Assembly (NCBI GenBank): GCA_036376135.1
Contig: DASVAW010000132.1
Location: forward strand, 1 to 49,977
DNA: 49,977 nt
Source of the DNA: Candidatus Polarisedimenticolaceae bacterium
GTDB lineage: Bacteria > Acidobacteriota > Polarisedimenticolia > Polarisedimenticolales > DASRJG01
Direction of reading: 5' to 3'
Under the pieces are notes generated by a model. It was not told where the DNA came from. It ran no database searches and saw only the letters and a program-made list of their open reading frames with translations. Every line of letters begins with the position of its first letter. Position 1 is the first letter of the stretch. Positions 4,798 through 13,264 of this stretch are shown piece after piece. A program made the position numbers and the translations under genes.

Positions 4798-6090
4798 TCA
4801 GGGGTACGCGAGGCTCACGATCACGGAGTTCGTGTCGTGGATCGACGCCGACACGTTCCCCGTCACGACGATCCTGGAGGCGTCCCCCGAGATCGCGTCG
4901 GCGAAGAAGTAGTCGGGGTCGGTCTCGCCGTGCGCCGCCATGAGGTCGTTGACGAGGACGAACCCGACGGAGGTATTCCAGAGGAAGGCGCGTTGGGGGG
5001 GCTCGCCGTTGGAGATCACCTGCGCGCCGAGATAACCGACCACGGTCGAGCCGTCGTCGGAGACGTCGAAGGCCTCGCTGCGGTCGTAGTCCGTCTCCCG
5101 CCCGTTCTCGGGGATCGTCACGAAACCGCCTCCGACCGTCCAGACGAACGGCGCCCAGTTGCCGCCGATCGAATATGCCCCTACCGCGGCGGTCGCGGCG
5201 CGGTTCACGGCGCGGACCGACTCGACGGAGCCGCCACCCGGAGGAGCCGCGATCGTCGCCGCCCCCGAGGCGTCCCAACGCACCAGCACCCGTACGCCGC
5301 CGAGATCCGCCCACCCGATCGAGCCGCTCGCGTCGTCCGCGACGAAGAGGGCGCTCGAGGCGGTGCCGACCGCCTCCATCGGCTGCCGCTTCAGCCCGAC
5401 CCAGCGTGCGGCGACGATCGACGCCTCGTCGGCCCCCGACTCGCCGACGGCGGTGCCTCCGTCGACGCTGACGTCCCAGGCGTTCGACCACGCATCGGCC
5501 GTCTCGAGCTCGCGCAGCGTCAGGCGCAACCGCCGTCCGTCGACGATCGACCACCGGGCCGCGCGCGGCGAGGCCCCCTGGGCCTGGGGAGAGACGTAGC
5601 CGACGGAGATCCGGCCGTCCGCGCTCACCGCGGCGGCACTCCCCATGCACGCGGCGCTTCCGCGCGTGGAGCACGGGAGGAAGTGGAGCCCCGCGTTCGG
5701 CGTCCAGACGAACGGCTTGTTGCGGAACTCGCGGCGCCAGAGGTTCGTGCCCACGCAGATCCCGTTGTCCGCGATCTCCGAGACGGTGTCGATCACCGAC
5801 CCGTAGTAGAGGTCCTCCGGGATCGCGAAGACCCGCGTCGGCGTCGCCGGCGACGCGAGGAACGCGACGTAGGTCTCGTTGAAGTAGATCCCGTCGCCGT
5901 CGTGGTCCCATCGGCTCGAGCCCGCGACGAGGTCGCCCGCGTCGAGGTTCGTGACTCCGATCCCCGGGCCGAAGAGGTCGGGTGCCCCCGGGACCGGACG
6001 GACCTCGGTGACCACGGGAGGAGCCGCGGCCGCGGCGGAAACGGCGAAAAGGACGAACAGAACGGCGGGACGGACGATGTCAACGCGCAT
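4798..6090 (-). CDS. Secreted HAF-like repeat (beta-propeller-like) protein
   Basis: A 430-residue exported protein with an N-terminal signal peptide (hydrophobic stretch AVLFVLFAVSAAAAAPP). The body consists of repeated units of the form 'A..VS.DG...VGY....G..RAARW', e.g. AAAVSADGRISVGY, AWDVSVDGGTAVGES and AFDVSDDGSTVVGYLG, typical of the HAF extracellular repeat family. Such proteins are probably propeller-like, and their function is usually unknown. It overlaps the 3' end of the amylase gene by 11 nt, so it is translationally linked to the sugar genes. I see no C-terminal sorting signal. Involvement in carbohydrate capture is only inferred from context. Confidence 0.85.
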   Translation of the reverse strand: MRVDIVRPAVLFVLFAVSAAAAAPPVVTEVRPVPGAPDLFGPGIGVTNLDAGDLVAGSSRWDHDGDGIYFNETYVAFLASPATPTRVFAIPEDLYYGSVIDTVSEIADNGICVGTNLWRREFRNKPFVWTPNAGLHFLPCSTRGSAACMGSAAAVSADGRISVGYVSPQAQGASPRAARWSIVDGRRLRLTLRELETADAWSNAWDVSVDGGTAVGESGADEASIVAARWVGLKRQPMEAVGTASSALFVADDASGSIGWADLGGVRVLVRWDASGAATIAAPPGGGSVESVRAVNRAATAAVGAYSIGGNWAPFVWTVGGGFVTIPENGRETDYDRSEAFDVSDDGSTVVGYLGAQVISNGEPPQRAFLWNTSVGFVLVNDLMAAHGETDPDYFFADAISGDASRIVVTGNVSASIHDTNSVIVSLAYP

Positions 6091-7339
6091 GGCGGACCCC
6101 CGTTTCCATGTACGCCGATCGGAGGTCGGCGTCGACCGTGATGCGGCAGACCGCCTCCCCTTCGCCGCGGACGAACCGCAGCCGCGATCCGACGGCCTCG
6201 ACCACCTGGAACGAGCCGGTTCGCAGCACGGGGTGGATCCGCCGAAGCCCCATCCACGTCCGGACCGCCTGCAGCCGATCGCGGTCCCAGCGGTCGTCGG
6301 CCGCGAATCCAGCGCGGGACGCGGGGGGTGCCCCGCCCTCCATCCCCACCTCGTCGCCGTAGTACAGGACCGGCGCGCCCGGAAGGGTCGCGAGCAGGGC
6401 GACCCCCAGATCGAGCGCCTTCCGATCGCCCCCTGCGGAGGTGAGGAACCGCGCCGTGTCGTGGGTCGAGAGGAACGTCCAGGACGTCAGCGTGTTCTCC
6501 CACGGGTAGAGCGCGTGCAAACGCTCCAGTTCCGCGGCGAATCGCTCCGCCCCCGAGGCGCCCACGACGAACGAGGTGACCGCGCCGTGCCACGGATAAT
6601 GGGTCACGCCGTGCCAGGCGGAACCTCCGACCCGGTCCGGAGCGGGTGGCCACGCCTCGCCGACGAGGAGCGCCTCCGGGCAAACCTCGCGCGCGCGTTC
6701 CCGCAGCTCGGCCCACAGTTCGGGAACCTCGATCTCCCCCGCCGCGTCGAGCCGGAACCCGGAGACGCCGCGACGCAGCCAGAACTCGAGGACCTTCGCG
6801 GCGTGCTCGCGCACCGCGGGCTCGTGGTGGTTCAGGACGGGCATCGACGCGTTCCCGTTCCAGCCGCGGAATCCGGCCCCTTCCCGCACGAACCAACGCC
6901 GCCAGGGCGATCGCTCGCCGTAGGTGAGCACGTCCTGGAATCCCCGGTATCCGCTGCCGACATGGTTGAGGACCGCGTCGAGGACGACGCGAAGGCCGCG
7001 GGAGAGGGCCACGGCGACGAACCGGTCGAACGCGGCATCGCCGCCGAGCATCGGGTCGACGGCAAAGGGATCGACCGGCTTGTATCGGTGGTACGCGGGG
7101 GAGGGCCACACCGGGGAGAGGAGAATCGCGTCCGCCCCGAGGCTCGCGATGTGGTCGAGCCGGGACGCGGCACCGTCGAGGTCGCCGCCGCGATAACCAC
7201 GCACCTCGGGGCCCGAGTCCCACGGGGCGAGAGCCGACGCGTCGAGCGTGGCGGGAGCGCTGCCGCTCCGCGCGAACCGGTCCAGGAAGATCGCGTAGAA
7301 GACCGCGCCCCGCGCCCAGGCGGGGGTGCCGTCACTCAT
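6080..7339 (-). CDS. GH13 alpha-amylase family glycosidase (neopullulanase/cyclomaltodextrinase-like)
   Basis: A 419-residue alpha-glucan-active enzyme. All four GH13 catalytic blocks are visible: VVLDAVLNHVG (region I, about 118-128), GFRLDAAGE with nucleophile D198 (region II), LLVGEAW with acid/base E228 (region III) and FLSTHDTARFL with D294 (region IV). There is no signal peptide and no obvious extra starch-binding domain, so it is probably cytoplasmic and acts on imported maltodextrins or cyclodextrins. It overlaps the kinase gene upstream by 8 nt and the HAF-like gene downstream by 11 nt. Alternatives within GH13 (maltogenic amylase, trehalose- or sucrose-related hydrolases) cannot be separated by reading alone. 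Confidence 0.93.
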   Translation of the reverse strand: MSDGTPAWARGAVFYAIFLDRFARSGSAPATLDASALAPWDSGPEVRGYRGGDLDGAASRLDHIASLGADAILLSPVWPSPAYHRYKPVDPFAVDPMLGGDAAFDRFVAVALSRGLRVVLDAVLNHVGSGYRGFQDVLTYGERSPWRRWFVREGAGFRGWNGNASMPVLNHHEPAVREHAAKVLEFWLRRGVSGFRLDAAGEIEVPELWAELRERAREVCPEALLVGEAWPPAPDRVGGSAWHGVTHYPWHGAVTSFVVGASGAERFAAELERLHALYPWENTLTSWTFLSTHDTARFLTSAGGDRKALDLGVALLATLPGAPVLYYGDEVGMEGGAPPASRAGFAADDRWDRDRLQAVRTWMGLRRIHPVLRTGSFQVVEAVGSRLRFVRGEGEAVCRITVDADLRSAYMETGVRHAR

Positions 7340-8225
7340 CGAGCGCCTCGAGGTCGGCCTCGACGCGCGAGGCCGAAAGCTCCGGGTGGGCCAGCTCGGT
7401 CGAGCGCACGCACCACGCGGCCACGACCGCTCCGGCGCGAAGCTGGCGCTCGACGGGGTATCCGCGGACGTGGCCGAACAACGCGCCGGCGAAGAAGGCG
7501 TCGCCCGCGCCGTTGGTGTCCACCGCGGCGACCCCCGGCACCGCCGGGATCCGAATCCACCTCCCCTCGCCGGTGAGCGCGAGCGCCCCGTCCCTGCCGA
7601 AGGTGCAGACGACGAGTCGTTTCCCGGCGGCGACGATCCGCTCCATCGCCGCCCGCGGATCCTCCAGAGCGTCGGCGCTGAGGAAGATCCGGTCGGCCGC
7701 CTCCACGAAGTCGGAGTGGTAGGCGTTCCTCCCGTCCCAGTCGTGCAGGTCGCACCAGACCTCGCGCCCGGCGGCGCGCAGCGCGGGAAGCAGGCGCCGC
7801 GCGTAGTTCATGATGTTGACGACGACGTGGTCGTGCGACGCCGCGAGCGATTCGAGCGCGGGCAGGTCGATCGCGGGCTCGAAGGTCGCGGGTTGGGCGT
7901 AGATCGACAGCCGTCCGCCCGCGTCGTCCATGAGATTGACGTGGCGCTCGGTTCCCGCCGGGTCCCTCTCCGTCACCAGACGCACGCCCGCCTCGCGCAA
8001 CGCGGCCTGCGCGCGGCTCCCGGGGTCGTCCTCGCCGAGCAGCGCGTGCAGCGTCGTGGGGAGGCCGAGGCGCGCGAGGTTCATCGCCTTCCCCGCGCCG
8101 GTCGACCCGACGGTTTCGCGCGCGCCCTTCGCGAAGACGGTTTGCGGCCGTCCTTCCGGCAGACGATCGAGTCGGACGATCGTGTCCCAGGAAACGCCGC
8201 CCACCACGAGCACCGAGCCCGTCAT
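7332..8225 (-). CDS. PfkB-family carbohydrate kinase (ribokinase-like)
   Basis: A 297-residue sugar kinase of the ribokinase fold. The N-terminal VVGGVSWD and the GSTGAGKAMNLARLG substrate region are followed by the C-terminal signature DTNGAGDAFFAGAL (Asp as catalytic base, anion hole GAGD). The length fits the family. The substrate is not identifiable; fructose, ribose, a nucleoside or another furanose are all possible. It overlaps the amylase gene by 8 nt and lies 10 nt after the cytochrome gene, so it sits in a long polycistronic block. No good ribosome site precedes the ATG, which suggests translation coupled to the neighbour. Confidence 0.9.
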   Translation of the reverse strand: MTGSVLVVGGVSWDTIVRLDRLPEGRPQTVFAKGARETVGSTGAGKAMNLARLGLPTTLHALLGEDDPGSRAQAALREAGVRLVTERDPAGTERHVNLMDDAGGRLSIYAQPATFEPAIDLPALESLAASHDHVVVNIMNYARRLLPALRAAGREVWCDLHDWDGRNAYHSDFVEAADRIFLSADALEDPRAAMERIVAAGKRLVVCTFGRDGALALTGEGRWIRIPAVPGVAAVDTNGAGDAFFAGALFGHVRGYPVERQLRAGAVVAAWCVRSTELAHPELSASRVEADLEALDE

Positions 8226-8235
8226 GGCGCGGAGG

Positions 8236-9255
8236 TTACCGCGCCGCGCCGCTCGCGGGAAGGTCGTCGGCGATCCACCCGCGGATGAGCTCGATCGCCT
8301 CGGCGTCGGCGACGACCGTCCCGAGGGGCGGCATCTGGGACATGGGGCGGCGCGACTTCATCCGGTGGAGGAGCGCGCTGTTCTCGGGGGCCCCGGGGGC
8401 GATGCGGCGCGAGCGCTCGGGAGCGATCCCCGGAACGGCGTAGATTCCCGCGACGTCGACGGTGCTCCGAAACACCGCCGACCCCGGCTCGTGCGCGAGC
8501 ACCAGGCCCAGGCGCGCGAGCGGACCGTGGGAGTTGTGGCAGGCGCCGCAGTTCGCCGCGAGGTAACCGAGCGCCGCGCGCTCGCGAGGCGTCGCCGCCT
8601 CGATCCTGGGCGGGTGTTCGACCCACTCGCGACGATCGGGGACCAGGCGCCCCTCGTCGACGAGGGAGCGCAGGGTCACCATCCCCGGCCGGAGCGGCTC
8701 GGCGTGCGGAGCTGCGGGGTCGCGGTCGTCGGAAAGCTGGAGCGCGTCGAACCCGAGCGACTCCCCCTTCCCGCCGCGGTGACAGGCCACGCAATCGGTG
8801 CGGGCGGGGATCGAGTGGAATCTCCCCGGCGCGACTTCGGCGACGTTCGGGACCCCCTCCTCCGGGGCGAGGTACGCCTCCGACTGCTCGTCGTTCCAGA
8901 CGTACGATGCGAACAGCCACGCGTCCTGTCCGGTCTTCCAGACCAGACGCGTCTCGACCTTCTTCCCGCCGAACGCGAACTCCTTCCAGAGCTTCGTCCC
9001 GACCGGAAAGGACCAGCGGAAGGGGTCGGTCGTGTCGATCGTCGTCCCGTCGGGAATGAAGATCCACCGCGACTTCACCGCGCCGTCGGTCCAGAGCGGG
9101 TACTGGGGCGAGAAGGGGCGGTTGCGCGCGTCGACCACCGCGGTCCCGCGACCGGCGTAAAGGCCGGTCTCGGTGAGCCGCTGCGGCGGCTGCGTCGTCG
9201 CCGCGCCGAGCGCGGCGACCCCCGCGAGCGCCGCGAGGATGGAGCGCGCGCGCAT
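8236..9255 (-). CDS. Exported dihaem c-type cytochrome
   Basis: A 339-residue exported protein with a short signal peptide (ILAALAGVAALGAATT). Two haem-attachment motifs are present, CVACH (about residue 169) and CGACH (about 235). The region after the signal (YPLWTDGAVKSRWIFIPDGT) resembles a conserved N-terminal module found in large 'SO2930-type' dihaem cytochrome-like proteins, and the C-terminal part has PMSQMPPLGT, a likely axial-Met region. It starts 4 nt after the upstream monohaem cytochrome stop, so the two are co-expressed periplasmic electron carriers. The redox partner is unknown. Confidence 0.9.
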   Translation of the reverse strand: MRARSILAALAGVAALGAATTQPPQRLTETGLYAGRGTAVVDARNRPFSPQYPLWTDGAVKSRWIFIPDGTTIDTTDPFRWSFPVGTKLWKEFAFGGKKVETRLVWKTGQDAWLFASYVWNDEQSEAYLAPEEGVPNVAEVAPGRFHSIPARTDCVACHRGGKGESLGFDALQLSDDRDPAAPHAEPLRPGMVTLRSLVDEGRLVPDRREWVEHPPRIEAATPRERAALGYLAANCGACHNSHGPLARLGLVLAHEPGSAVFRSTVDVAGIYAVPGIAPERSRRIAPGAPENSALLHRMKSRRPMSQMPPLGTVVADAEAIELIRGWIADDLPASGAAR

Positions 9256-9259
9256 CGGC

Positions 9260-9805
9260 CTATTCCGCCGGCTCGATCGGCTGCGGAACCTTGTTGCGGA
9301 CGGGCTCGAGCGACCGGAGGTAGGCCCACAGGTCGGCGAGGTCCTCGTCGGTGGCGGCGCCGAGCATGAAGTACGGCATCGGCGGGAGGATCGGTCGCCC
9401 CTGCCCTTCGTGACGGCCGGTGCGCATCGTCTGCTTGAAGGTCTCGAACGTCCACTTGCCGAGGCCGGTCTCCATGTCCGGGGTCAGGTTCGCGGCGAAG
9501 CTCGTCCCCCACGGGCCGGCGAAGGCGGTGTTGGTTGCGCCCCCGACCCACACCCACGGACCTTCGGGGAGCTTGGGTGCCGGAGGCATCACGAGGTCCT
9601 GCGGGTGACCGGTCAGGGCGCGGCTCATGTCCATCTCCGGACCCTTCGGTCCCATCTTCCAGGGGGTGTGGCAGTCGTTGCACCCACGCGTCCGCACGAT
9701 GTAGGCGCCGCGCTCCGCGCTCCCCCTCACGGGCTTGAGCTCCTCGGATGCCGTCGCGGGAAGGGCGGCGGCGAGGGCGGCGATCGCGATCCAGGTCGTT
9801 TTCAT
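9260..9805 (-). CDS. Exported monohaem cytochrome c
   Basis: A 181-residue periplasmic cytochrome c. A signal peptide (WIAIAALAAALPATASEE) is followed by one haem motif CNDCH (about residue 42) and a Met-rich distal region (PPMPYFMLGAATDEDLADLWAYLRSL) typical of cytochrome c domains. The sequence between haem and distal Met is long, like diheme-like 'cytochrome c family' proteins found beside dehydrogenases. AAGGAGG precedes the ATG. It is the promoter-proximal gene of the minus-strand block, read from the 9806-9924 intergenic region that also holds the 11-bp direct repeats. Confidence 0.9.
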   Translation of the reverse strand: MKTTWIAIAALAAALPATASEELKPVRGSAERGAYIVRTRGCNDCHTPWKMGPKGPEMDMSRALTGHPQDLVMPPAPKLPEGPWVWVGGATNTAFAGPWGTSFAANLTPDMETGLGKWTFETFKQTMRTGRHEGQGRPILPPMPYFMLGAATDEDLADLWAYLRSLEPVRNKVPQPIEPAE

Positions 9806-9871
9806 GAGGTCCTCCTTCGTCGTTCCGCCTCATGAGACGCCCGAAACCGGAGGACGCCGCCATCACGAATC

Positions 9872-9898
9872 CCTAAACTCTTCCTAACTGTTTCCTAA
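9872..9898. promoter_or_regulatory. Three 11-bp-spaced direct repeats (candidate operator)
   Basis: CCTAA occurs at 9872, 9883 and 9894, exactly 11 bp apart, within (t/c)CCTAA-type units; on the other strand this reads TTAGGAA twice and TTAGGGA once. Direct repeats at one helical turn are the classical arrangement for OmpR/PhoB-type winged-helix proteins. The site lies in the 119-bp gap between the divergent cytochrome gene (start 9805) and the split-barrel gene (start 9925), whose operon encodes a protein ending in such a winged helix. Function is inferred. Confidence 0.4.
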
Positions 9899-9924
9899 GT
9901 TGGTACCGTGGGGTCGAGCGCCCC

Positions 9925-10383
9925 ATGCTGAGTGAAGAAGTTGCAAGTTTTCTGACTTCCGGGCTGTCGCTGAACGTCGCCACCGCCTCCCGGGAGCTCG
10001 AACCCAACGGCACGCGTGCCTTCGCCGCCGTCGTCGAGCCCGACCTCGCGCACGTGGTCGTCTTCGTGCACGCGAGCGTCGCGCCGGCACTGGTCCGGGA
10101 CCTCGCCGAGAATCCACGGATCGCCCTGACCTTCGGGAGGCCGGTCGATCACCGCACCTGCCAGATCAAGGGCACGTTCGTCGGGAGCCGCGAAGCGACG
10201 GCCGACGACGTCGAGGAGGTCGCGCGGCAGGCGGAAGGGTTCGCCCGGAGTCTCGAGACGATCGGCATCTCGCGCGACCTGATGGCGGGGTGGAGCCCCT
10301 GGCCCGCGGTGGCGCTTCGGTTCCGCGCGACGGAGAGCTACGAGCAGACCCCCGGCCCCGGTGCCGGCGAGCCGCTGCGATGA
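9925..10383 (+). CDS. Pyridoxamine 5'-phosphate oxidase-like (FMN split-barrel) protein
   Basis: A 152-residue protein with the split-barrel pattern: an N-terminal helix (SEEVASFLTSG), strands SLNVATAS, HVVVFVHAS and the helix ALVRDLAENPRIALTF, then the strand CQIKGTFVG. The family binds FMN, F420 or haem. Its final bases overlap the next gene's ATG (ATGA), so it is translationally coupled to a larger protein that starts with the same fold. No catalytic role can be assigned. It could be a flavin-binding partner or sensor; a general-stress or haem-degrading member is an alternative. Confidence 0.8.
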   Translation: MLSEEVASFLTSGLSLNVATASRELEPNGTRAFAAVVEPDLAHVVVFVHASVAPALVRDLAENPRIALTFGRPVDHRTCQIKGTFVGSREATADDVEEVARQAEGFARSLETIGISRDLMAGWSPWPAVALRFRATESYEQTPGPGAGEPLR

Positions 10384-11753
10384 GCGTCACCCTCGAGAGC
10401 CTGACCCCCTGTTTCCAGGGACTGATCCCCGCGACGTTCTACACCTGCTCGCGGTCGGCGGAACCGAACGTGGCGTTGTTGAGCCACGTCGATTACGTCG
10501 ACCGGAACCACGTCGCCCTGTCGTTCCAGTTCTTCAACAAGAGCCGGCGCAACGTGGCGGAGAACCCGCGCGCGCTCGTGCGCGTCTACGATCCCGACAC
10601 CCTGCGCTGCTGGAGCCTCCGGCTGCGCTTCGTCCGATCGGAGACCGAAGGACCGGTCTTCGACGCGATGGCGCTGCGCATCGAGGCGATCGCCTCGCAC
10701 GAGGGGCTCAAGGGGATCTTCCGACTCCGCGCCGCGGACATCTACGAGGTCCTGTCGATCGAGTCCGCGCCGGACGAGCCCGGGATCCCCGTCCCCGAGG
10801 ATTGCCCGCGCCGCGCGGCCGCGACGGCGGACGCGTTGTTCACGATGCGCGCGTTGCAGGAGTTCTCGGAACGCATCCATCGTACGTGCAGCCTCGAGGC
10901 GCTGCTCGACGCGGTGCTCGAAACCCTCGAGCATCAGTTCGGCTTCGCGAATTCGATCATCGTCCTCACGGGGGAGCACCCCGGCCGCCTCGTGACGATC
11001 GCCAGCCGCGGCTACCCCGAAAGCGGCGTCGGCTCCGAGGTCGGGATCGGCGAGGGAATCATCGGCATGGTCGCCGAGGCGCGAAAGCCGATCCGCATCT
11101 CCGGGATGCTCCGCGAAATGCTCTACGCCCACGCCGTCGCGATGCGCGCGCAGGAACAGGGCATCCGCGCGGAGTGCGCGATCCCCCTCCCCGGACTCCG
11201 GCAACCGGAGAGCCAGCTCGGCATCCCGCTCCTCGCCCACGGCGAGCTGATCGGGGTGTTGTGCATCGAGAGCGAGACTCCCTACCGCTTTCACGAGCAG
11301 GACAAGGCCTTCTTCGAGCTGCTCGGGAACTACCTCGCGATCGCGATCCAGAACACGCTCCTGCGCGAGCGGTCGGAGGACGCGGAGGAGCCCGCGCCTC
11401 CGGCCGCCCCCGCGCCGGCGAAGTCGACGAAGCGCCTCGAGGCGACGTATTACGCCGCCGACGAGACGGTCCTCGTGGACGGCGAGTACCTCGTGCGAAG
11501 TCTCCCCGCGAAGATCCTGTGGAGGCTGCTCCGGGAGCACGCGACGACGGGGCGCACCGAGTTCACCAATCGCGAGCTTCGTCTCGACAAGACGCTCAGC
11601 CTTCCCGAGTACAAGGACAACCTCGAAAGCCGCCTCATCCTGCTGCGGCGCCGCCTCGAGCAGCGCTGCCCCGAGATCCGGATCGACCCGGCGGGACGGG
11701 GGAGGTTCGTGTTGGCGCTCGGGGCCGAGATCGCATTGTCCGAGCGCGCCTGA
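10380..11753 (+). CDS. FMN split-barrel / GAF / winged-helix regulator
   Basis: A 457-residue multidomain protein. Residues 1-135 repeat the split-barrel fold (NVALLSHVDYVD, NHVALSFQFFNKSRRNVAENPRA). Residues about 155-335 are a GAF sensor domain (FSERIHRTCSLEALLDAVLE... IGVLCIESETPY... LLGNYLAIAIQN). A Pro/Ala-rich linker (about 341-358) leads to a C-terminal segment (about 365-450) that fits an OmpR/PhoB-type winged helix: RSLPAKILWRLLREHATTGR, NRELRLDKTLSL, then NLESRLILLRRRLEQR and a final hairpin RGRFVLAL. I read it as a one-component redox- or ligand-responsive transcription regulator. The ATG overlaps the previous stop by 4 nt. The winged-helix call is the least certain part. Confidence 0.85.
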   Translation: MSVTLESLTPCFQGLIPATFYTCSRSAEPNVALLSHVDYVDRNHVALSFQFFNKSRRNVAENPRALVRVYDPDTLRCWSLRLRFVRSETEGPVFDAMALRIEAIASHEGLKGIFRLRAADIYEVLSIESAPDEPGIPVPEDCPRRAAATADALFTMRALQEFSERIHRTCSLEALLDAVLETLEHQFGFANSIIVLTGEHPGRLVTIASRGYPESGVGSEVGIGEGIIGMVAEARKPIRISGMLREMLYAHAVAMRAQEQGIRAECAIPLPGLRQPESQLGIPLLAHGELIGVLCIESETPYRFHEQDKAFFELLGNYLAIAIQNTLLRERSEDAEEPAPPAAPAPAKSTKRLEATYYAADETVLVDGEYLVRSLPAKILWRLLREHATTGRTEFTNRELRLDKTLSLPEYKDNLESRLILLRRRLEQRCPEIRIDPAGRGRFVLALGAEIALSERA

Positions 11754-11791: not shown

Positions 11792-12157
11792 ATGCCCTAT
11801 GAGCTCTGGAAAGTCGTCCACCTGATCGGCGTCATCGCGCTGTTCTCCTCGCTGGGCGGGCTCGCGGCGCTTTCGCTCGTCGGACGCCCCGAGGCGTCGA
11901 AACCGTTCAAGGTCCTCCACGGCGTCGCGTTGTTCGTGATCTTCCTCGCGGGGTTCGGCCTGCTCGCCAAGCTCGGCATGGGGGGCCCCTCCTCCTGGGG
12001 GGTTTGGGTCTACGTGAAGCTCGGGGTCTGGCTCGCGCTCGGCGCGGCGCTCGCGTTCGTCAAGTCCGCGGGACGCAACGCCACCGCCGTGCTGCTGCTC
12101 TGCGCCCTGCTCGGCGCGATCGCGGCGTGGGCGGCGGTGGCGAAGCCGGGGATGTAG
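11792..12157 (+). CDS. Small integral membrane protein, four predicted helices
   Basis: A 121-residue hydrophobic protein with about four membrane segments: WKVVHLIGVIALFSSLGGLA, VLHGVALFVIFLAGFGLL, VWVYVKLGVWLALGAALAF and TAVLLLCALLGAIAAWAAV. The first helix contains WKxxHLIG, and such a His within a helix is common in small cytochrome-b-like or SirB/CopD-type membrane proteins, but one His is not enough for a haem claim. GGAGG lies upstream of the ATG. It follows the regulator by 38 nt and meets a cytochrome gene tail to tail. No function assigned. Confidence 0.75.
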   Translation: MPYELWKVVHLIGVIALFSSLGGLAALSLVGRPEASKPFKVLHGVALFVIFLAGFGLLAKLGMGGPSSWGVWVYVKLGVWLALGAALAFVKSAGRNATAVLLLCALLGAIAAWAAVAKPGM

Positions 12158-12161
12158 GCCT

Positions 12162-12581
12162 TCAGCGCTGCTGCATCGACTCGAGGTGGTCGGCGAGGGC
12201 GCGGGCCCGCATCTCGAGCACCGCGGGGTCGTCCCCGACCCGCAACCGGAAGATCGTTCCCCAATCCGGCATCGGGGTCGTCGTGGGGCTTTCCGCGTGC
12301 CCCGACCTGATCGTCGCGAGCACGTGCCGGCGCGGGAATTCCGGCGAGTGGGTGAGCGTGAGCGCGGTCAGGTCGGCGGGTTTGTTGGCCAGCACGGGAG
12401 ACACCCCGCCGTCGCCCCTTCCGTCCTCGCCGTGGCAACGCGCGCAGTACGTCGCGTACATCGCGGCCCCCGCGGTCGGCGGCGGAGCCGATCCCTGGAT
12501 CAACTCGATGCGCTGCGCCTGGGCGGCCCCGAGCACGAACCCCGAAGCCACCGCGACGGTCACGAACCAGCGGGTTTTCAT
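12162..12581 (-). CDS. Exported cytochrome c
   Basis: A 139-residue class I-like cytochrome c with a signal peptide (FVTVAVASGFVLGAAQAQ) and a single haem motif CARCHGEDGRGDGG. The distal methionine is likely in TTTPMPDWGTIF. The start MKTRWF is chosen because GGAGG lies a few bases upstream; an in-frame ATG seven codons earlier would run into that site. It is the third c-type cytochrome within 4.3 kb. It stands divergent to the ECF sigma factor gene, with which it shares a 119-bp intergenic region. Confidence 0.9.
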   Translation of the reverse strand: MKTRWFVTVAVASGFVLGAAQAQRIELIQGSAPPPTAGAAMYATYCARCHGEDGRGDGGVSPVLANKPADLTALTLTHSPEFPRRHVLATIRSGHAESPTTTPMPDWGTIFRLRVGDDPAVLEMRARALADHLESMQQR

Positions 12582-12700
12582 GGCTGCCTCCTTCCTTTCC
12601 ACCCCCTGGTGGTCGGCCTGGGCCGGGCGTGACGCAACTCGCGAGAAATCCCGCCCAACGCCGGCCTCCCGGGCCCCGTACCCTTCCCGGAGGGAACGTC

Positions 12701-13264
12701 ATGGAGCCCGGAACCGGCCTTCTCGACGACGCGGATCTGGCCCGGCGGATTCGGGATGGGGACCTCGCGGCGGAGGAGGAGTTCGGACGGAGGTACGGGC
12801 GGCGGCTGCGCGCGATGATGCTCGCCCGCACCCGCAACCCCGCCGACGCGGAGGATCTCGCCCAGGAGGCGCTGCTCGCCGCCCTGCAGGCGCTGCGCGC
12901 GGGACGGATCGACTCCCCCGAACACCTCGCGGCGTTCGTCCACGGGATCGGCCGCAACGTGGTCGCGGGCTTCGCGCGGACCCGCGCGCGACACCCCGCG
13001 GAGGTCACGCTTCCCGAGGACCTGCGCGCGCGGCGGACGCGTTCGCGCATCACCCGCGGCAGCACGATCGCGAAGGCCATGCGCGGGGTCGCGGGGCTGA
13101 GGACCACCGACCGCGCGATCCTCGCGTTGTCCTACTGGTGCGGGCGCTCGGGGCCGGCGATCGCGCGGGCGCTCCACCTGCGTGGCGATCTGGTTCGAGC
13201 CCGGAAGGCCCGGGCGCTCCGCAAGCTCGCGCTCGCCCTCCGCGGCGGGCGAGCCGCTACTTGA
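12701..13264 (+). CDS. ECF-type RNA polymerase sigma factor
   Basis: A 187-residue sigma-70-family factor. Region 2 is seen in FGRRYGRRLRAMMLARTRNPADAEDLAQEALLAAL (about 28-65), with the DAEDLxQEA signature that contacts core polymerase and the -10. Region 4 is seen in LSYWCGRSGPAIARALHL followed by a basic RARKARALRKLAL helix. The start MEPGTGLL is chosen because CGGAGGG lies 7 nt upstream; the frame further upstream lacks a site. No anti-sigma factor is adjacent. The 3' end overlaps the convergent peroxidase gene by 8 bp. The regulon is unknown. Confidence 0.85.
   Translation: MEPGTGLLDDADLARRIRDGDLAAEEEFGRRYGRRLRAMMLARTRNPADAEDLAQEALLAALQALRAGRIDSPEHLAAFVHGIGRNVVAGFARTRARHPAEVTLPEDLRARRTRSRITRGSTIAKAMRGVAGLRTTDRAILALSYWCGRSGPAIARALHLRGDLVRARKARALRKLALALRGGRAAT

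Follow-up and report, generated by a model that had tools for sequence, protein, structure and literature searches.

A predicted one-component regulator with split-barrel, GAF and OmpR-type winged-helix domains, and a conserved tandem 11-bp array before cytochrome and hemerythrin genes

Tandem 11-bp direct repeats overlapping the -35 region are found in the pho box, and OmpR-type DNA-binding domains read tandem repeats of about one helical turn. An array standing in place of the -35 box is the layout of PhoB-type activation. GAF sensors within transcription activators are found in NifA and NorR, and split barrels in the PNPOx-like FMN and haem proteins (PF01243), such as HutZ and HupZ. Likenesses to each of these systems occur together at one locus in a 49,977-nt stretch of DNA from Candidatus Polarisedimenticolaceae bacterium, an Acidobacteriota genome (contig DASVAW010000132.1; hereafter, the window). 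The locus comprises two divergent gene pairs, one of them encoding the proteins referred to here as S and Q:

8236..9255, minus strand: SO2930-type diheme cytochrome of 339 aa, predicted target (TIGR03806, 1.2e-47)
9260..9805, minus strand: monohaem cytochrome c of 181 aa, predicted target (Pfam Cytochrom_C, 6.9e-7)
9925..10383, plus strand: S gene, PNPOx-like split-barrel protein of 152 aa, first gene of the operon (Pfam PNPOx_N, 5e-6)
10380..11753, plus strand: Q gene, predicted one-component regulator of 457 aa (Pfam, AlphaFold model, relatives in several phyla)

The S and Q genes overlap by ATGA, and the monohaem cytochrome c and diheme cytochrome genes, divergent from S-Q and separated by a 4-nt gap, belong to the same predicted operon. 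The window diheme cytochrome scores 162.7 bits over the whole TIGR03806 model, below the curated cut-off of 313.3, and on this score it is a relative of the SO2930 family, not a curated TIGR03806 member. At most 10 nt behind its gene, and on the same (minus) strand, lie genes for a PfkB-type kinase and an alpha-amylase (6080-8225), which may be co-transcribed with it, with no obvious functional link. Another c-type cytochrome gene (CBB3/cytochrome c type; 12162-12602, minus strand) is convergent to the S-Q operon and has no array upstream, and a gene for an ECF-like sigma factor with sigma-70 regions 2 and 4 (12629-13264, plus strand) follows a little downstream of the locus. As a possible third gene of the S-Q operon, the downstream membrane gene at 11792-12157 was rejected, as its relatives do not recur beside S-Q. 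Scans of the window locus for sigma-70 promoters, terminators and Rfam families gave no result.

The initial annotation had described Q as a fusion of a split barrel, a GAF domain and an OmpR-type winged helix, and had named beforehand a C-terminal model without a winged helix as a result that would count against it. Pfam, AlphaFold and Foldseek agree with the proposed architecture, which is laid out along the gene as follows:

10380..10769, plus strand: split-barrel domain of Q (residues about 1-130; conserved C11, C23 and H44)
10845..11378, plus strand: GAF domain of Q (residues 156-333; Pfam GAF_2, 8.4e-19; PtsP GAF domain 3trc, 1.4e-9; Foldseek GAF matches)
11433..11750, plus strand: winged-helix domain of Q (residues 352-457; AlphaFold and Foldseek; putative recognition helix 415-429)

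The GAF domain lies well above the curated Pfam cut-offs (68.6 bits vs 28.6 for GAF_2; 59.9 vs 22.4 for GAF). PNPOx_N matches the N terminus of the window Q weakly (E 0.021; 15.6 bits, curated cut-off 28.1) and is matched in all 12 Q relatives searched with Pfam, with E-values down to 1.6e-10. Foldseek matches of the barrel include HupZ, and its nearest solved sequences, both weak matches, are the FMN-binding protein 3in6 and the haem protein HutZ. Within the barrel, C11, C23 and H44 are conserved in 96%, 92% and 96% of relatives. Residues 350-457 have no Pfam match and no PDB sequence match, and Trans_reg_C (PF00486) finds none of 14 Q members at E up to 10; in the absence of a sequence-profile match the C-terminal domain therefore called for comparison of folds. 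Modeled alone, it is predicted by AlphaFold to adopt a beta3-alpha1-beta-alpha2-alpha3-beta3 arrangement (pLDDT 93), with an N-terminal beta-sheet before the winged helix, and the full-length model (pLDDT 85.8) has the same C-terminal elements. The top ten Foldseek PDB matches are all OmpR-type DNA-binding domains, BaeR, SaeR and AdeR among them, with probabilities up to 0.99, TM-scores by target up to 0.66 and weak E-values of 0.04-0.3. Since the AlphaFold model has a winged helix, which Foldseek matches to OmpR-type domains, the model named beforehand as adverse did not arise. Residues N414, L415, R418, L419, L422 and R425, in the putative recognition helix and its start, are invariant in 74 Q relatives. 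Pfam detects only the GAF domain and the weak PNPOx_N match, that is, no receiver domain, and profile searches detect no AAA+ domain. As modeled, Q joins sensor and DNA-binding domain in one polypeptide, the make-up of a one-component regulator.

The annotation of a second barrel protein as operon partner of Q holds across phyla. S falls just below the curated PNPOx_N cut-off (27.3 bits vs 28.1), the domain is matched in 20 of 44 S relatives, and a profile search with S against PDB returned nothing meaningful. The protein is further marked by a C-terminal QTPGPxAG motif and by invariant Q80, K82, Q141, P143, G144 and G148. By tblastn, S is the gene immediately before Q in 77 of 85 loci, and in most of these the 4-bp overlap recurs; in the other eight, the DNA adjoining the start of Q encodes the S signature QTPG, so that, by these sequence criteria, S precedes Q in all 85 relatives examined. 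The range of full-length Q spans at least four bacterial phyla: it is encoded by Acidobacteriota, Nitrospira, a Planctomycetota MAG, a Gemmatimonadaceae MAG and alpha-, beta- and gamma-proteobacteria. A diverged Q-like stretch at L004/L019 (G027:C44:10034-11052) has barrel and GAF matches in separate pieces with TGA and no winged-helix match, and is perhaps a decayed or split Q. The other neighbors of S-Q vary. The commonest is a hemerythrin-domain protein of about 240 aa (57/85 loci), followed by relatives of the window cytochrome c (23/85) and of the SO2930-type diheme cytochrome (16/85), and at least one of these three is present in 76 of the 85 loci. No other regulator gene is conserved among them.

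In the window, CCTAA occurs on the plus strand at 9872, 9883 and 9894, exactly 11 bp apart, and nowhere else on either strand of the 50 kb, which confirms the repeats originally noted between the S-Q operon and the cytochrome genes. The pattern CCTAAN6CCTAA has two overlapping matches here, vs 0.04 expected, and these are also its only matches in the 4.38-Mb genome (reversed-pattern control, 1); TTARSN6TTARSN6TTARS has a single site in the same genome, at S-Q. By sequence comparison, the predicted array consists of four half-sites, one more than the three repeats first counted, and is oriented, as TTAGG, towards the cytochrome operon and not towards S-Q, an orientation assigned by comparison with all relatives:

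9888..9898, minus strand: operator half-site 1, TTAGGAAACAG (matrix scan)
9877..9887, minus strand: operator half-site 2, TTAGGAAGAGT (matrix scan)
9866..9876, minus strand: operator half-site 3, TTAGGGATTCG (matrix scan)
9855..9865, minus strand: operator half-site 4, TGATGGCGGCG, degenerate (register from relatives; L002, L030 and L031 have TGAGC here)

Read towards the cytochrome gene, the array thus runs TTAGGAAACAG TTAGGAAGAGT TTAGGGATTCG TGATGGCGGCG, followed by 16 nt and GTCTCA.

The same periodicity is found upstream of the hemerythrin genes, where pairs of TTA[AG][GC] occur 52 times at 11 bp, 39 times at 22 bp, 27 times at 33 bp and never at 44 bp, other distances averaging 0.10. Because the first three spacings are frequent and 44 bp is never seen, the predicted operator is made up of four tandem 11-bp half-sites, TTARS-N6, read towards the target. 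A matrix built solely from hemerythrin promoters exceeded the 99% shuffle threshold in 44 of 47 hemerythrin promoters and in 11 of 13 cytochrome promoters. Scanning of whole loci with this matrix at a threshold of 16 located the array in 80 of 86 S-Q loci, leaving six without it; 8 of 86 reversed-sequence controls also cleared that threshold, and the maximum over 20 loci of unrelated GAF proteins was 12.8. In most relatives the array precedes the target gene at a distance of 2-3 kb from S, and it adjoins S only where the target is divergent. Of the 80 loci with an array, 75 have it pointing at a gene for a hemerythrin, cytochrome c, SO2930 cytochrome, cupredoxin-like protein or cupin. At that position tblastn finds a cytochrome or hemerythrin in four of the remaining five (L026, L037, L046 and L088), and in the fifth (L108) a flavin-monooxygenase-like gene, identified by eye, lies in the reading direction. 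The array is turned accordingly in L038, L043 and L045, whose targets are on the other strand. In L027 (4440-4520) and in the same region of L032, Acidobacteriota arrays between two divergent promoters appear by eye to be about six 11-bp half-sites long. The matrix scans thus uphold the initial annotation of the repeats as a putative operator before cytochrome genes, one that is conserved, and extend it to hemerythrin genes, with binding as a prediction from sequence.

The distance between array and -10 hexamer is also constrained. Behind 40 of the 44 non-redundant hemerythrin arrays, a TAnnnT hexamer (TAGACT in 25 cases) starts at an offset of exactly 16 nt, and no other offset has such a hexamer more than once. 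The 16-nt offset recurs at the cytochrome targets L002, L050, L051 and L093 and the cupin targets L049 and L055, and is 17 nt at the Nitrospira cupredoxin-like targets. Given this fixed spacing, the last half-site occupies the place of the -35 box. The corresponding positions in the window are the following:

9833..9838, minus strand: -10 slot of the cytochrome promoter, GTCTCA, 16 nt after the array, unrecognizable as a -10
9904..9909, plus strand: TACCGT, weak candidate -10 for S-Q, close behind the array

At the -10 offset, the sequence in three Acidobacteriota relatives is GTCCAT or GTCTTC. Because half-site 4 is degenerate and the -10 unrecognizable, the case for activation is weaker for the window than for the family. 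TACCGT is a weak candidate suggested by its position, which is that of TATACT in L027, L028, L032 and L035.

A pattern search of 120 relatives brought up one acidobacterial genus in which three genomes carry the array just behind a previously unseen Q, while two congeners have neither array nor Q. The genes that follow the array in this genus are those for cytochrome c and the SO2930 cytochrome, as in the window. It lies between Q and the cytochrome c-SO2930 operon (L173 4300-4430 in G132, and likewise in G097 and G121) and is inverted relative to that operon, which is the one clear exception to the orientation rule. Among the other genomes matching the pattern, those tested had no full-length Q, and the counts were comparable to the reversed-pattern control. 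Whole-genome scans for the three-repeat array returned mostly the single S-Q site. In a Ramlibacter MAG (L153, G089:C230:7180-7206), a second array at about 1501-1527, away from the S-Q contig, precedes another hemerythrin gene and a small COX1-like membrane gene (ORFs 1605-2309 and 2351-2722); it is a likely second target, or else a contig from another organism. An extra array match in L138 has no hemerythrin or COX1-like gene. The exact two-repeat pattern gave 15 matches over 20 genomes or records, vs 62 for the reversed pattern, and hence no genome-wide enrichment; of these 15, 11 fall within the S-Q locus.

We propose that the OmpR-type winged helix of Q would bind the four tandem 11-bp half-sites (TTARS-N6) as head-to-tail protomers, that the array would cover the -35 region of a single target promoter, whose -10 hexamer lies 16 nt further downstream, and that Q, once bound, would recruit RNA polymerase as PhoB-type activators do. 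The predicted target in this Acidobacteriota genome is the divergent operon for cytochrome c and the SO2930-type diheme cytochrome, which, judging from the arrangement of sites, Q most likely activates; in other lineages the same regulator-operator pair would serve a hemerythrin, a cupredoxin-like protein or a cupin. Sensing of the signal would fall to the split barrel and GAF domain of Q, with S as partner or co-sensor. That signal is probably redox-related (flavin, haem, NO or thiol state), which is plausible by analogy, with barrels like those of FMN and haem proteins, conserved C11, C23 and H44, and targets that handle oxygen, NO or electrons. To this reading as a whole, a one-component activator acting through a four-half-site array, with S, barrel and GAF domain sensing a redox-related signal, we assign a probability of about 0.72. 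It is based on what the sequences and models show, namely the domain make-up, the predicted fold and the conservation, geometry and genes of the operator, from which we infer binding and activation by Q, the role of S and the nature of the signal. Since Q was the entry point for collecting the loci, its link to the array rests on synteny and co-occurrence. A more specific and still speculative version, which we consider somewhat less probable than its converse, has S and Q forming a two-protein sensory system in which S would carry or hand over flavin or haem and pair with the barrel of Q, the state of the cofactor would gate four protomers on one array, and several phyla would have taken up the one module for different proteins that handle oxygen, NO or electrons: hemerythrin, cytochromes, cupredoxin-like proteins and cupins.

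Q might instead bind the array as a repressor released by its signal, or activate the target while repressing its own divergent promoter. The overlap of the array with the expected -35 region of the S-Q promoter in divergent loci, its inversion in one genus and the unusual -10 slot of the window are in keeping with this. A repressor site, however, need not hold such spacing or orientation, and the fixed 16-nt distance to the -10 in 40 of 44 promoters, with the array replacing the -35 box, is the layout of an activator; we regard repression as unlikely. That the array serves mainly S-Q autoregulation, the cytochrome genes being bystanders, is suggested by its position 27-53 nt before S in the window and its Acidobacteriota relatives. 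Yet the array is present in just 19 of 70 non-redundant S promoters, each of them in a divergent arrangement; elsewhere it accompanies the hemerythrin, cytochrome or SO2930 gene at the opposite end of the locus and turns with the target, and the S side has no fixed -10 spacing. The whole-locus matrix scan has thus, at the level of sequence, already largely refuted this explanation, to which we accord the slightest probability of those considered. Control of S-Q by itself, which the initial annotation had included, does not stand as a general feature and would be at most a side effect of the divergent arrangement.

The array could also be bound by a regulator encoded elsewhere, with S and Q as flavin- or haem-binding proteins merely sharing the locus; the resemblance of both barrels to FMN and haem proteins fits this, as does a link between Q and array made by synteny. 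Against it, Q has an OmpR-type winged helix of its own with a nearly invariant putative recognition helix, the S-Q loci share no other conserved regulator gene, and array and Q are present or absent together within one genus. We consider this very improbable, and activation by Q remains the preferred reading.

The activator reading describes a widespread regulator family that is given, from sequence alone, together with its operator and predicted target promoter. As Q is tied by gene order to one four-repeat site before carrier genes, the genes it controls become predictable, and hemerythrins, an uncharacterized diheme cytochrome family and cupredoxin-like proteins are tied to one control system. 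Both the signal and the function of the carriers are directly testable in culturable hosts, for instance Hydrogenophaga, Variovorax, Nitrospira moscoviensis or Rhizobium etli.

We found no paper on a PNPOx-GAF-winged-helix regulator or a TTARS-N6 operator in the open-access literature, closed journals lying outside the search, and novelty is therefore provisional. S and the N terminus of Q resemble the PNPOx-like FMN and haem proteins and probably belong to their fold family, but Q differs from them in the fusion of the barrel to GAF and winged-helix domains and in conserved C11 and C23, and S in its QTPGPxAG tail. With NifA and NorR Q shares the GAF sensor, to which the NifA model matches weakly, but it has neither an AAA+ or sigma-54 interaction domain nor a Fis-type HTH, and the target promoters of S-Q have sigma-70-like -10 hexamers and no -24/-12 elements. 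The closest likeness is to the OmpR/PhoB family (Trans_reg_C, PF00486), in the modeled winged helix with its preceding beta-sheet and in an operator of tandem direct repeats at 11/22/33-bp spacing, tied to Q by synteny. In contrast to that family, Q lacks a receiver domain and phosphorylation, its sensor being split barrel and GAF, and has no Trans_reg_C sequence match, and its operator is composed of four half-sites of TTARS-N6; lacking both receiver domain and Trans_reg_C sequence match, Q is no member of the response-regulator family. Provisionally, then, the OmpR-type domain and its tandem 11-bp operator are of a known kind, and the sensor, the partner and the set of targets are apparently undescribed.
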